Below are positions 40 to 54,363 of a stretch of 64,000 bases of DNA, piece by piece. The notes beneath the pieces are model-generated. The model was given only the letters and a program-made list of their open reading frames with translations, made no database searches and had not been told where the DNA came from. The stretch is taken from NCBI RefSeq assembly GCF_000317515.1, contig NC_019738.1, positions 3,002,001-3,066,000 on the forward strand. The letters run 5' to 3'. Position 1 is the stretch's first letter, and each line of letters opens with the position of its first letter. The stretch comes from Allocoleopsis franciscana PCC 7113 (GTDB lineage Bacteria; Cyanobacteriota; Cyanobacteriia; Cyanobacteriales; Coleofasciculaceae). Made by a program: the position numbers and the translations under genes.

Positions 40-297
40 ATGAGCCAAAGCACCTTAACGATTTCAGGCTTAGAAGACTTTATGCAATTAGTGCTGGAAG
101 ATCAGGTGCTGCAAGATAAACTCCAAGCCTGCCCTGATGAAGAAAGCCTTGTTTCCTGTGTCGTTCAACTAGGTCAAGAGAAGGGATACAGATTCACTGA
201 TGAAGAAGTTCGAGAGAAGCTAGCGCAAATAAGAGAAGAGCACGAATTTACATACCCACTAAGTGATGTACCACCTCAAATTCTTTACTTTTATTAG
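40..297 (+). CDS. Nif11-like short peptide (copy A)
   Basis: This 85-residue protein has the Nif11 N-terminal pattern of hydrophobic and acidic residues (LEDFMQLVLEDQVLQDKL), which in known families is the leader of ribosomally made, post-translationally modified peptides. The ATG at 40 is preferred over the in-frame TTG at 25, because the protein then begins MSQSTLT, as Nif11 leaders usually do. There is no Gly-Gly cleavage site and no Cys/Ser/Thr-rich core; it ends in a short aromatic tail (ILYFY). It may therefore act as a Nif11-domain protein and not as a typical precursor. It sits 137 bp upstream of an unknown ~350-residue protein, and the same pair recurs at 2056-3447. The family call is fairly sure; the function is not. 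Confidence 0.75.
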   Translation: MSQSTLTISGLEDFMQLVLEDQVLQDKLQACPDEESLVSCVVQLGQEKGYRFTDEEVREKLAQIREEHEFTYPLSDVPPQILYFY

Positions 298-434
298 CCT
301 AGCTCACACTCTACAGGCAGACTTTGCAACATTCTGTTTGGGAAATTGCAGTAGTTGTGAAGCAGCTTTAGAGCCATAACAGCAAGTTGTACAAGGTAGG
401 CAAAGTTGAAGTCCACGATAAAAGGGGTAAGTCT

Positions 435-1487
435 ATGGACAGCTCAATGGCAGATTACTTGAAAGTGGTTACTTCCTACCTTCCCTCTGAGTTGCTCTCT
501 CCTAACTCAAGTCTTCACCTCCAAAGCTTGGCTCAAATCTTACCCCCCTTCTCTTCAGCCATGTTGGAGTTTCGCTTAGGCGCTGATCAGTCTCAGACTG
601 ACATGTCAGTTTTTTTTACCCCTCGTATCCTAAATTTATCAGAGACGTTGCTCAATCATGGTGTTTGGCAAGCTTTACAGGATTTTTGCCAGAATTGCGT
701 TGAGCCAACATCTCTAGAGCATCGTTACGTGAAAAAAATAGCACTTGAATTTGATTTGGATGAACAGCAATCACAAGTACCAATCCCTTCTATTTTTCTA
801 TTCTGGAATGAGGGAAATGTTAATGATGCTCAAGCACTGATTGAAATTCTCTTCAGGTTACCTAATTATTTAGTCTCTTCAAAATTACAGTCTAATCTTC
901 AGCTTTGTGTTAATTCGCTTCCTCAGGGTGCTAAAGTCGAGCATATTGGGGCAATGTTGTCTCGTCCGGGTGAGGTGTTGAGACTAATAGTGGGGGGTAT
1001 CCCTCCACAGCAGTTTTCAGATTATCTGATGCAAATAGGCTGGTGTGAATCCACAGAGACTATCTCTACTCTCGTCTCTAATTTATATGGCTTGGTAGAT
1101 GAAATACGTTTTTTGTCCTTCGATATTGGTGATGTTATTTATCCCAGAGTAGGTTTAGAATTTTTTCTAAAAAAGCAGCCTGAGCATGAACCTAGATGGG
1201 AATTATTTTTAGACCGTTTGATTGAAATGGGATTATGTACGCCAGCTAAAAAAAATGCCCTTCTAGCGTGGTCTGGCATTTCTCAAAAAGCCGACAATCC
1301 AGAATTATGGCCTCAGAATCTGAGTAGGGGAGATCGTTTACTAAGTTCCAGGGCATCTAGCGTTTTTTGGAGAACAATCAACCATATAAAAATTGTCTAT
1401 CAAACAGACAGTCCTTTGGAAGCTAAGGGATATTTAACGTTTAGTCATCAGTGGATCGATGCCAGAACCCTAACTACTAGCTGTTAA
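435..1487 (+). CDS. Uncharacterised Nif11-partner protein (copy A)
   Basis: A protein of about 350 residues that I do not recognise. The ATG at 435 is chosen because it gives MDSSMADYLKVVTSYL, which matches the start of the paralogue at 2404 (MNSSMADYLKVVTSHL); an upstream in-frame TTG at 387 would add 16 unmatched residues. No signal peptide or membrane segment is apparent. Conserved blocks shared with the paralogue include DIGDxIYPRxGLEF, AKKNALLAWSG and FxRTINHIKIVYQ. Each copy follows a Nif11-like gene by 100-140 bp on the same strand, suggesting co-transcription and a functional link. It could be a modifying enzyme or binding partner for the small peptide; that is inference from context only. 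Confidence 0.7.
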   Translation: MDSSMADYLKVVTSYLPSELLSPNSSLHLQSLAQILPPFSSAMLEFRLGADQSQTDMSVFFTPRILNLSETLLNHGVWQALQDFCQNCVEPTSLEHRYVKKIALEFDLDEQQSQVPIPSIFLFWNEGNVNDAQALIEILFRLPNYLVSSKLQSNLQLCVNSLPQGAKVEHIGAMLSRPGEVLRLIVGGIPPQQFSDYLMQIGWCESTETISTLVSNLYGLVDEIRFLSFDIGDVIYPRVGLEFFLKKQPEHEPRWELFLDRLIEMGLCTPAKKNALLAWSGISQKADNPELWPQNLSRGDRLLSSRASSVFWRTINHIKIVYQTDSPLEAKGYLTFSHQWIDARTLTTSC

Positions 1488-1612
1488 TCCAAGAATTCAA
1501 TCAACCATAAACAATCGATACTCGCCCTGGATGACAGCTTAAGAAAAATACCCTAAAAAGGTTAGCTTACTGGACATAGACTGGGTGCGATTGCTCCGCA
1601 ACATAGCTGAAT

Positions 1613-1658
1613 TTGAGCCTGCACGCTAGAAATCCCCAGCAATTCAACTTAGGCTCAA
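1613..1658. repeat. Inverted repeat in the gap after partner A
   Basis: TTGAGCCT at 1613-1620 is the reverse complement of AGGCTCAA at 1651-1658, giving an 8-bp stem around a 30-nt loop. It could form a hairpin but has no T-run after it, so it is not a clear terminator. The rest of 1488-1760 holds nothing I recognise. Confidence 0.35.
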
Positions 1659-1760
1659 GCCGGATAAGGCTATTTAGCTGATTCTTGAAGATTTTTTGCT
1701 GCTACAAATGAAAAATCTAAGAACCTGCTATACTTTTGCGATAACTTTTGGGAAAACTAT

Positions 1761-1846
1761 ATGTCTCAAGACAACTTAGAGCGGTTCTGCCAATTAGTTA
1801 AGAGAAAATCAGGCACTTGAAGTAACCTGTTTCACAGTTTTAGATT
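1761..1846 (+). pseudogene. Frameshifted Nif11 leader remnant
   Basis: An ATG at 1761 opens MSQDNLERFCQLV, a textbook Nif11 start, but the frame closes at TGA 1818-1820. Shifting by one base at about 1800 continues the family pattern as RENQALE, matching the ENxxL motif of intact Nif11 proteins such as copy B (MENQELRERL). After that the homology fades, and a MITE-like element follows directly. This is a third, dead Nif11 gene lying between the two intact pairs, consistent with tandem duplication and decay. Confidence 0.7.
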
Positions 1847-1993
1847 GAATGTCACTGACATAAGAGCCTTGAAATAAATTTCAGGCTCAAAGCTTAAGTA
1901 AGCTTTAGCTTACTAAATAAGCATTTCAACCCGTTAAAACGGGTTTCAGCTTTTAGCCCGAACTTTAGTTCAGGGCTTAAGTCAGTGCCATCC
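1847..1993. mobile_element. MITE-like element with TIRs and 10-bp target duplication
   Basis: The 147-bp segment begins GAATGTCACTGAC and ends GTCAGTGCCATCC; the two ends are inverted repeats matching at 11 of 13 positions. It is flanked on both sides by GTTTTAGATT (1837-1846 and 1994-2003), a perfect 10-bp direct repeat as expected for a target-site duplication. The interior is non-coding and packed with palindromes, for example GAGCC..GGCTC near 1865-1890, AACCCGTTAAAACGGGTT near 1930 and AGCCCGAA..TTCAGGGCT near 1957. It lacks a transposase and would need one in trans. It landed at the end of the decayed Nif11 gene. Confidence 0.65.
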
Positions 1994-2055
1994 GTTTTAG
2001 ATTAATTGGAGAACTACCCGGATAAACTTATCTAAAGACTTTTTTGAGGCACATT

Positions 2056-2301
2056 ATGTCGCTACGAAACTTAAAGCAATTTGCCCGAGTCGTTATGGAG
2101 AATCAGGAACTTAGAGAACGGCTATCAGGGGTTTCCGATCAGGGAAGCCTTGTACGTCTTTTGGTGGCAATGGGAGAAGAGAACGGTTATACCTTCAGTG
2201 AGCAAGATGTAGTCAACTATTTAGATCTCGTGAGTGATGAGGTAGAGATCAGTTATCCTCTAGCTAATCTAGATGAGATTCCAAGCGTAGTAGTTTGGTG
2301 A
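2056..2301 (+). CDS. Nif11-like short peptide (copy B)
   Basis: An 81-residue Nif11-domain protein beginning MSLRNLKQFARVVMENQEL. The ATG at 2056 is preferred to the TTG at 2044. As in copy A, there is no double-glycine site or cysteine-rich core, and the end is a short hydrophobic tail (SVVVW). Copies A and B share the same layout, including xxISYPLAN/FTYPLSD before the tail, so they are paralogues. The gene lies 102 bp upstream of the second partner gene. Confidence 0.75.
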   Translation: MSLRNLKQFARVVMENQELRERLSGVSDQGSLVRLLVAMGEENGYTFSEQDVVNYLDLVSDEVEISYPLANLDEIPSVVVW

Positions 2302-2403
2302 GCCTAAGCCTGCTTTTGCTGTGTAAGAGCGGTCTTAGAGGTCGCTCTTACATAATTTGTATTGAAACTACATTGATACCTTTCAACTACGTCAGTTCGA
2401 TCT

Positions 2404-3447
2404 ATGAATAGCTCAATGGCAGATTATCTGAAAGTGGTTACTTCCCACCTTCACTCTGCCCTAGTTTCAGCCGAAGCCATGTCTCGCCTTCAATCATTAA
2501 CTCAAATCTTACCTCCTTGCTCTAGGACGGTATTAGAAGTCCGTTTAGGTGCGAATCAGCCTCAAGTGGACTTTTTTACCTGTTACCCTTGTCACACGCT
2601 CAATCTACCGAAAAATTTGCTGACCCATCCCATTTGGCAAGGCATACAGAACTTTTGCCTAGAATGCGTTGACACAACATCTTTACTACACCAAAATGTG
2701 AAACATATCTGGCTGGAATTCGATCTGGATAAGCCGCCCTCACAATTGCCAATCCCATGTATTTTCTTTAATGCCCTTCAGGAAACTTTTAGTGACGCTC
2801 AAGCACTAATTGAGGCAGCACTCAGGATACCTAATTATCAAGTCTCCCCAAAACAACAATCGAATTTACAGCTTTGCATTGATTCCCTACCCAGCAATGC
2901 CAGAAGCGATCAGGTTGGAGCGATGCTGTCTCGACCAAACCAACCTTTAAGAATAACAGTATGTGGTTTGCTCTTACAGCAGGTGGCAGATTATCTCAGG
3001 CAAATAGGCTGGAAAGATCCGACTAATACACTCTCAACCATTATCCTGACTTTATCTACCTTTTTAGATGAGAGCGATTTTCTTTTGTTGAATCTCGATA
3101 TTGGCGATACTATCTATCCAAGAATTGGCTTAGAATTTTATCCGAAGCAGCAGCCCCGACTTAATCGCCCGGAACTATTATTTCTCAATCGTCTCGTTGA
3201 AATGGATCTATCTACCTTGGCAAAAAAAAATGCCCTTCTTGCTTGGTCAGGGTACTCGCAAAAAGCAGAGCATCCAGAATTATGGCCTGAAAATCTGACC
3301 GGAGGCGATCTATTACTTCGTTCAGAGGCAATAAGTCTTTTTCAGAGAACAATTAATCATATAAAAATCGTTTATCAACCAGGTTGTCTTCTAGAAGCTA
3401 AAGCCTATTTAGGTATTATTCATGATTGGTTTAATGTCAAATCCTAG
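2404..3447 (+). CDS. Uncharacterised Nif11-partner protein (copy B)
   Basis: A 347-residue paralogue of the protein at 435-1487, similar along its whole length, from the shared MxSSMADYLKVVTS start to the TINHIKIVYQ block near the C-terminus. No catalytic motif that I know is obvious, and no export signal is seen. The pairing with an upstream Nif11 gene is repeated exactly, so the duplication unit was the two-gene module. Its function is unknown; a role with the Nif11 peptide is inferred from synteny. Confidence 0.7.
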   Translation: MNSSMADYLKVVTSHLHSALVSAEAMSRLQSLTQILPPCSRTVLEVRLGANQPQVDFFTCYPCHTLNLPKNLLTHPIWQGIQNFCLECVDTTSLLHQNVKHIWLEFDLDKPPSQLPIPCIFFNALQETFSDAQALIEAALRIPNYQVSPKQQSNLQLCIDSLPSNARSDQVGAMLSRPNQPLRITVCGLLLQQVADYLRQIGWKDPTNTLSTIILTLSTFLDESDFLLLNLDIGDTIYPRIGLEFYPKQQPRLNRPELLFLNRLVEMDLSTLAKKNALLAWSGYSQKAEHPELWPENLTGGDLLLRSEAISLFQRTINHIKIVYQPGCLLEAKAYLGIIHDWFNVKS

Positions 3448-52530: not shown

Positions 52531-54363
52531 ATGACTCACTCCTCACGGATCTCGCAGACAAATCAGCGCCCTCGCGAGAACGACTGGCGACTGTTTCTGC
52601 GACTTGTGCCTTATGCCCGTCGCACGGGACACCTGTTATGGATTTCCATGACGTTATTGCTGCCCTTGTCTATAGCAAGTGCCGTTCAACCCTTAATCAT
52701 TGGACAGGCTATCTCCTTGATCCGTTCTGAAGATCAAACCTGGTCTTTTCTGAAAGAGCGATCGCTATCCGATGGACTCAGCCTTCTCATCCTTCTACTG
52801 CTGTTAACCATCGTGATCCGATTGGTGTTTGTGGCGGTGCAGGGCTTCCTCGTGGTGAAGTTAGGGCAACAGATGACCGCTTGGATACGCGAAGACCTAT
52901 TTGACCATGTTACCGCCTTGGCCGTGCGATTTTTTGACCGAACTCCCGTCGGGCGGTTAATTACTCGACTCACCAGCGATGTGGAAGCCTTGGGTGATGT
53001 ATTTTCCACAGGGGCAATTGGCATTATTGGGGATGTCCTCTCCATCCTGGTGATTGCCATCACCATGTTCTTTCTGCAATGGCAACTCGCCTTGATGCTA
53101 GTGTTAATGCTGGTACCCATCACGGGGTTAATTATTTACTTCCAGCAGGAATATCGCAAAGCCAACTACAAAGCCAGGGAAGAACTGTCCGCCCTCAACT
53201 CGATGCTGCAAGAAAACATCAGTGGCATTAATATTGTGCAACTGTTCCGTCGGGAGCAATTCAATGCGGAAGTGTTTCGTGAAGTGAACAATCGCTACAT
53301 CAAAGAAGTAGACAAAACTATCTTTCACGATTCAGCGGTTTCGGCAACACTAGAGTGGATTAGCTTTATGGCGATCGCTGGTGTGTTGGGGTTAGGGGGT
53401 TGGCTGGTTCTGGGAAAAACGCTGAGTTTTGGGGCTTTGTCAGCCTTTGTTCTGTACGCACAGCGTTTATTTGACCCCTTGCGTCGGTTTGCCGAAAAAT
53501 TCACCATGCTTCAAGCCGGATTCACGGCAGTTGAGCGCATCAGCGATATCATGAATGAGCCAATTGAAATCCGTGACCCCGTTCTGACAGGGGAACAGGG
53601 CAAACTTGGCTCTACTTTCTCCCCCGCCTCTGGCACTGGAGAAATCCGCTTTGAGCATGTCTGGTTTGCCTACAAGCCAGATGAATACGTGCTCAAAGAT
53701 TTGCACTTCACCATCCGTCCCGGTGAAAAAGTGGCATTAGTAGGGCCGACGGGGGCTGGCAAGAGTTCGATTATCCGTCTTTTGTGCCGCCTCTATGAAC
53801 CGACACAAGGACGAATTCTGATTGATGGCATCGATATTCGCGACATCTCCCAAGCCGAACTCCGGCGCTATTTGGGTGTCATCTTGCAAGAAGGATTTTT
53901 GTTTGCTGGAGATGTCAAGGGGAACATCACCTTAGGAGAAACTTACCCGATTGAGCAAGTTCAAGCGGCGGCTGAAGTGACGAACGTTGCGGATTTCATC
54001 GAACAGCTACCCCAAGGCTATGATACCCAACTGCGAGAGCGAGGCACGAATCTCTCTGGAGGACAAAAGCAATTGTTGGCGTTTGCGCGTGCGGCGATTC
54101 GTGACCCTAGTATCCTAGTACTGGATGAGGCAACAGCCAGTTTGGATGTGGGTACAGAAGCCCTGATTCAACAAGCCTTGGATCGGGTAATGGAAAAACG
54201 CACGGCGATTATTATTGCTCACCGCCTCTCGACGATTCGGAATGTAGACCGAATTCTGGTATTGAAACGGGGAGAATTGATTGAGTCAGGCAGTCACGAT
54301 GAACTGTTGCAGCAGAATGGACTGTATGCAAGTTTATATCAGTTGCAAATGTTGGGAACCTGA
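52531..54363 (+). CDS. ABC-type exporter, fused permease and ATPase
   Basis: A 610-residue half-transporter of the MsbA/MDR-like type. Six membrane helices fill residues of about 30-330, followed by the ATP-binding domain: Walker A GPTGAGKSS (405-413), ABC signature LSGGQKQ, Walker B ILVLDEATASLD and the H-loop IIAHRLST. It would work as a dimer to export a lipid, peptide or drug. The length is normal. It is upstream of an SDR gene on the same strand, with about 90 bp between. Confidence 0.92.
   Translation: MTHSSRISQTNQRPRENDWRLFLRLVPYARRTGHLLWISMTLLLPLSIASAVQPLIIGQAISLIRSEDQTWSFLKERSLSDGLSLLILLLLLTIVIRLVFVAVQGFLVVKLGQQMTAWIREDLFDHVTALAVRFFDRTPVGRLITRLTSDVEALGDVFSTGAIGIIGDVLSILVIAITMFFLQWQLALMLVLMLVPITGLIIYFQQEYRKANYKAREELSALNSMLQENISGINIVQLFRREQFNAEVFREVNNRYIKEVDKTIFHDSAVSATLEWISFMAIAGVLGLGGWLVLGKTLSFGALSAFVLYAQRLFDPLRRFAEKFTMLQAGFTAVERISDIMNEPIEIRDPVLTGEQGKLGSTFSPASGTGEIRFEHVWFAYKPDEYVLKDLHFTIRPGEKVALVGPTGAGKSSIIRLLCRLYEPTQGRILIDGIDIRDISQAELRRYLGVILQEGFLFAGDVKGNITLGETYPIEQVQAAAEVTNVADFIEQLPQGYDTQLRERGTNLSGGQKQLLAFARAAIRDPSILVLDEATASLDVGTEALIQQALDRVMEKRTAIIIAHRLSTIRNVDRILVLKRGELIESGSHDELLQQNGLYASLYQLQMLGT

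Follow-up and report, generated by a model that had tools for sequence, protein, structure and literature searches.

The left end of a 64,000-nucleotide window from Allocoleopsis franciscana PCC 7113 very probably lies inside a gene cluster for ribosomally synthesized and post-translationally modified peptides (RiPPs), in which peptides with Nif11 leaders would be both prenylated and C-methylated. The window, meaning the whole stretch of DNA analysed (NC_019738.1, positions 3,002,001 to 3,066,000; G000:C1:3002001-3066000), holds two Nif11 precursor genes, each followed by a gene for a partner protein of about 350 residues. Structural modelling and fold searches identify the partner with high confidence as a prenyltransferase of the alpha-beta-beta-alpha (ABBA) fold, which, by analogy with a characterised relative, probably attaches an isoprenoid to its own Nif11 peptide. 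Taking the left flank and the window together, the gene order is Nif11, radical S-adenosylmethionine (SAM) methyltransferase, Nif11, partner, possible remnant, Nif11 and partner, with the following features inside the window.

40..297, forward strand: Nif11-leader RiPP precursor 1, 85 residues, tail TYPLSDVPPQILYFY; matches PF07862 and TIGR03798.
435..1487, forward strand: predicted ABBA prenyltransferase PT1, 350 residues; 57% identical to the modelled PT2, E value 1.1e-144 to the hidden Markov model (HMM) of the partner family.
1761..1830, forward strand: possible Nif11 precursor remnant, seen in the reading frames as an ATG, MSQDNLERFCQLV and a frameshift into RENQALEV.
2056..2301, forward strand: Nif11-leader RiPP precursor 2, 81 residues, tail SYPLANLDEIPSVVVW, with a C-terminal Trp; matches PF07862.
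2404..3447, forward strand: predicted ABBA prenyltransferase PT2, 347 residues; AlphaFold2 model and fold searches.

The gap between peptide and partner genes is 137 bp in pair 1 and 102 bp in pair 2. PT1 is read from the ATG at 435, whose context is as in the second copy; an alternative start is the TTG at 387.

Duplication and fold of the partner proteins

In a tree of 70 family members PT1 and PT2 are sisters with support of 100/98, so that the pair was duplicated within its own lineage, recently relative to the family. A preliminary description of this DNA had proposed two intact Nif11 genes, each shortly upstream of a paralogous partner, and their duplication as a unit; the coordinates, the PF07862 matches and the 57% identity bear out the former, and the tree the latter. 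The ratio of non-synonymous to synonymous substitution rates (NG86 dN/dS) between the two copies is 0.23, with dS of about 1.3, so both partner genes look maintained.

The same description had been unable to assign the partner, an assignment now made by its fold. Pfam and NCBIfam yield nothing beyond noise for the partner (for example, YopH_N at E 0.09), and a sequence search of the PDB likewise returned only noise, its match to a human immunodeficiency virus envelope chimera (E 0.06) being rejected. The AlphaFold2 model of PT2, made from a 29-sequence alignment, has a mean predicted local distance difference test score (pLDDT) of 90.6 and a predicted template modelling score (pTM) of 0.90, and is built of the repeated alpha-beta-beta-alpha units that define the ABBA barrel. 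The first 50 Foldseek matches to this model are all ABBA prenyltransferases (E 5.6e-6), including 5- and 6-dimethylallyltryptophan synthases, PriB, IptA, DMATS1, PatF, PagF, Orf2/NphB, CloQ and AmbP1, and the 50 entries listed by VIA-align are again all ABBA prenyltransferases, with Z scores of 14.6–17.0 over approximately 290 residues; CymD and FgaPT2 also occur among the fold-search matches. All family members keep eight charged residues (E105, D107, R177, R183, D232, E244, H319 and K321, in PT2 numbering), of which the basic R177, R183, H319 and K321 are possible counterparts of the diphosphate-binding Arg/Lys/Tyr set in the lumen of ABBA barrels. A toxin–antitoxin or immunity role for the partner was dropped once the fold had been identified. 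The fold alone is no proof of activity, which is why the family context matters.

Nif11 precursor peptides

Both peptides match PF07862 above the gathering score (E 7.9e-11 for precursor 1 and 1.6e-7 for precursor 2), whereas only precursor 1 reaches the TIGR03798 cut-off of 32.3 bits, with 32.4 bits against 28.7 bits for precursor 2. The two are approximately 35% identical across 79 positions. A third Nif11 gene, encoding the 78-residue precursor 0, lies in the left flank; its product passes the TIGR03798 cut-off and ends in NLPVL, and no prenyltransferase directly follows it. The stretch beginning with the ATG at 1761 may, judging from its reading frames, be a broken further Nif11 precursor gene; its tblastn match is short and on its own not significant (E 2–8).

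Neither a Gly-Gly cleavage site nor Cys occurs in the C-terminal tails of precursors 1 and 2, as the preliminary description had stated; of the Cys/Ser/Thr core that it also found lacking, Ser and Thr do occur in these tails. A Gly-Gly site is common among Nif11 precursors and is no part of the Nif11 model, and it is also missing from several homologous precursors that have a partner of the same family.

Precursor 1 ends in LYFY and precursor 2 in VVVW. Of the precursors located no more than 700 bp from a family gene, 12 of 26 end in Trp, Tyr or Phe, compared with 4 of 39 unlinked Nif11 peptides (Fisher p 0.0025; unlinked tails ending in Lys-Trp, which come from genomes with a partner elsewhere, were left out, and the rows are related to one another), and all but one of the 26 (25/26) have Trp or Tyr within their last 12 residues. 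That aromatic C-termini are commoner beside family genes suggests, without proving it, that the acceptor is a C-terminal aromatic residue. In the group of clusters with LanM (lanthionine synthetase) and oxygenases most precursors end in Lys-Trp; there (L034, L035, L036, L046, L060–L062, L137, L138 and others) nearly all Nif11 precursors share this ending on very different cores, and a single cluster can contain six copies or more. Four tandem Nif11 precursors with Gln-Trp or Gly-Trp ends were also seen at L195 (G087:C17:41313-43798), where no prenyltransferase was found alongside.

Distribution and neighbourhoods of the partner family

Members of the partner family occur in 29 of 388 genomes sampled from the class and 52 of 389 sampled from the order. 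Seventy-two loci were fetched, of which the 68 with a called family gene are the base of the neighbourhood counts. A Nif11 or NHLP precursor lies within 10 kb at 57 of these 68 loci, which upholds the pairing claimed earlier; if RiPP maturases, exporters and terpene cyclases are counted as well as precursors, 64 loci have at least one. In the tree group that holds PT1 and PT2, a Nif11 gene lies close by for 25 of 26 members. Nif11 matches number about 4 per genome of about 6 Mb in the 29 genomes that were searched for them first, so the linkage of Nif11 to the partner is far above chance.

The maturases beside family genes include LanM, YcaO with SagB, SPASM radical SAM proteins, the epimerase PoyD and TIGR03975 enzymes, and NHLM-type ABC transporters occur there too. 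Another neighbour family of approximately 600 residues is present at 19 loci, among them L034:13813-15609 and L036:8293-10116. Pfam and NCBIfam do not recognise it; its model matches class II terpene cyclases, best squalene-hopene cyclase and the meroterpenoid cyclase MstE, and the family would seem to be a terpene cyclase linked to peptides that has escaped annotation. These neighbours with a terpene-cyclase fold are an independent indication of prenyl chemistry. Oxygenases dependent on 2-oxoglutarate and Fe(II) (2OG-Fe(II)) are commonly fused to or beside the homologues, and prenyltransferase, terpene cyclase and oxygenases together in RiPP clusters form a coherent chemistry.

Several arrangements recur around the family. 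A 2OG-Fe(II) oxygenase domain is fused C-terminally to the prenyltransferase at L017, L018, L023, L025–L027 and L029, and fusions of prenyltransferase and class I SAM methyltransferase occur at L131:9781-11682, L132:4743-6656, L133:7412-9316 and L135:1-1835; at L044 a separate methyltransferase gene follows the prenyltransferase. Two clusters (L053:6364-13913 and L144:6393-17306) each contain two diverged family members with a WelO5-type oxygenase/halogenase and a squalene-hopene-cyclase-like protein, joined in L053 by LanM. A cyclic-nucleotide-binding protein, a DUF7005 protein and a ParA-like ATPase recur beside exporters at L040:8405-11526, L051:12400-15552, L060:6210-9415, L138 and L150.

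The radical SAM methyltransferase and the surrounding genes

Between precursor 0 and precursor 1, and ending 31 bp outside the window, lies the gene for a 650-residue protein that matches TIGR03975, a B12-dependent radical SAM C-methyltransferase of RiPP maturation, over its full length (782.7 bits against a cut-off of 281.85; E 2.3e-235). This methyltransferase occurs in 3 of the 20 genomes searched from the family of A. franciscana, and all three carry the prenyltransferase.

A relative in the same family, G569, has a syntenic locus that is flanked left and right by the same genes as here and contains a single precursor–partner pair. Its order is a gene resembling two-partner secretion transporters, a TPR/CHAT-like gene, a methyltransferase gene whose product is 85% identical to the protein here, Nif11 and a partner carrying a fused SAM methyltransferase domain, followed by a filamentous-haemagglutinin-like and a CHASE2-cyclase-like gene; the names of the outer neighbours were assigned by eye. 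No trace of the methyltransferase domain of this fusion was found in the window.

Further along the window, at 52531-54363, lies an NHLM-like ABC transporter gene with membrane and ATPase domains, in which no C39 peptidase was found and which is only possibly connected with the cluster. One scan for viral contigs gave no matches.

Relation to characterised systems

The closest characterised relative is found in the mpp cluster of Moorena producens, where MppC geranylates Trp82 of MppE, requires the Nif11 leader and does not accept free Trp (PMC12715784); the MppE core is ACWRWSG, with W80/W82 and L66/L71 (PMC11791876, PMC12715784). One family locus, L128, encodes an 84-residue Nif11 precursor with the core ACWRWSG and W80, W82, L66 and L71, which matches published MppE, length included, and the gene 395 bp downstream of it encodes a member of the partner family (family HMM E 1.9e-106), to which PT1 and PT2 are approximately 32% identical. 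The L128 protein may be an orthologue or a sister species' copy instead of MppC itself. The locus described here shares with mpp an ABBA prenyltransferase of the same HMM family beside a Nif11-leader precursor, and a core Trp. In contrast to mpp, which has LanM, a halogenase and a terpene synthase, it lacks the leader ending in Gly-Gly and the lanthionine ring, and has instead a C-methyltransferase of the radical SAM type and, in tandem, two precursor–prenyltransferase pairs.

A second point of comparison is NctPC, reportedly described by Hubrich et al. in Chem in 2024. NctPC is an ABBA prenyltransferase-cyclase acting on Trp of a ribosomal peptide (PMC13290415). At L129 and L130 the family domain is fused to a squalene-hopene-cyclase-like domain beside LanM, and these fusions fit this description of NctPC. 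PT1 and PT2, unlike NctPC, lack a cyclase domain, and none of the genes found next to them is a cyclase. Sequence comparison thus places PT1 and PT2 in a family that contains enzymes of the MppC and NctPC types.

The cyanobactin prenyltransferases PatF and PagF share with PT1 and PT2 the ABBA fold and the modification of peptides in cyanobacteria, but have no detectable sequence relation to them and act leader-free on macrocycles. Clusters of Nif11 peptides with rSAM_ocin_1 (TIGR03975) likewise have Nif11 leaders and an adjacent TIGR03975 enzyme; the prenyltransferases are the addition here. The locus falls outside the lanthipeptide prenyltransferases: there is no LanM in the cluster, the genome's only LanM-type match being 480 kb distant, and no Cys in the tails.

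Proposed mechanism and alternatives

For prenyl transfer, its donor and acceptor, the use of the leader and the order of steps, we infer the following scheme. The Nif11 part of each precursor would serve as leader and its last 10–15 residues as core, and each precursor would be served by its own ABBA-fold prenyltransferase, docking on the leader as in MppC. The C-terminal core would then enter the open end of the barrel, where an aromatic side chain close to the C-terminus would receive an isoprenyl group (C5–C20), the predicted acceptors being the Trp of VVVW in pair 2 and the Tyr of LYFY in pair 1. The same linear cores would also receive methyl groups on aliphatic carbons from the B12-dependent radical SAM enzyme. 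That the partner uses or reads the Nif11 domain, as the preliminary description suggested, is well supported and probably right, given the linkage among homologues and the leader requirement of MppC (PMC12715784). Our broader proposal is tentative, with a little less than an even chance of being correct: a non-lanthipeptide RiPP class of short linear cores, C-methylated by a B12 radical SAM enzyme and prenylated by dedicated enzymes that read the Nif11 leader, with tandem precursor–enzyme pairs that split the acceptor between Trp and Tyr; more broadly, the leader-guided prenyltransferase family would plug into at least five RiPP maturation chemistries.

Some observations weigh against prenylation and the RiPP assignment. 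By sequence the partner matches none of the solved or curated prenyltransferases, its invariant residues are known from the alignment, and the L128 protein lacks the published MppC residues W336 and F340 at those positions. The genes have no dedicated exporter or leader peptidase next to them, the closest ABC transporter of peptide type that was found being 49 kb off, and 4 of the 68 family loci have neither a precursor nor a RiPP enzyme. The lack of sequence similarity to known prenyltransferases would also suit an inactive ABBA-fold scaffold or chaperone that binds the leader and hands Nif11 precursors on to whichever maturase the cluster encodes, and the many different maturases alongside (LanM, YcaO/SagB, SPASM radical SAM, PoyD and the radical SAM methyltransferase) are what a general helper would meet. 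Charged residues that are invariant across the family, terpene cyclases fused or adjacent to its members and the activity of the relative MppC (PMC12715784) all speak against such a scaffold, which we consider improbable.

The nature of the substrate allows two further explanations. Since free Trp and small indoles are the substrates of the best fold matches, the enzyme might prenylate a small molecule or a free amino acid, as CymD and PriB do with free Trp, and be linked to Nif11 through a shared cluster only; this we regard as the least likely of the alternatives, since the enzyme is paired gene by gene with a precursor and duplicated pairwise, MppC rejects free Trp and is leader-dependent (PMC12715784), and Trp or Tyr lies near the end of almost all adjacent precursors. 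Only marginally more credible, and still very unlikely, is that the peptides act as small regulators with a Nif11 domain and that the partner has another substrate. Their short, hydrophobic cores, the missing Gly-Gly site and the TIGR03798 score of precursor 2 under the cut-off would fit regulators, but a radical SAM methyltransferase of RiPP maturation sits among the precursor genes, and homologous clusters with the same partner family have classical Gly-Gly cores beside LanM. Prenylation of the Nif11 peptides by their partners is the reading we retain.

Novelty and implications

Prenyltransferases led by Nif11 were described in 2024–2025 on lanthipeptides, so the system is not undescribed in the general sense that had been proposed; that claim may hold for the non-lanthipeptide radical SAM variant, which was not found in the literature that could be searched. 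New here are the non-lanthipeptide setting with a radical SAM C-methyltransferase, the duplicated precursor–prenyltransferase pairs and the service of one prenyltransferase family to several RiPP chemistries. This family escapes Pfam and NCBIfam, yet it occurs in more than one in eight of the order genomes sampled, and, once recognised as leader-linked prenyltransferases, its members can guide the search for peptides, prenylated or terpene-cyclised, beyond lanthipeptides. The duplicated pairs are a natural experiment in the choice between Trp and Tyr and in the discrimination of closely related leaders.

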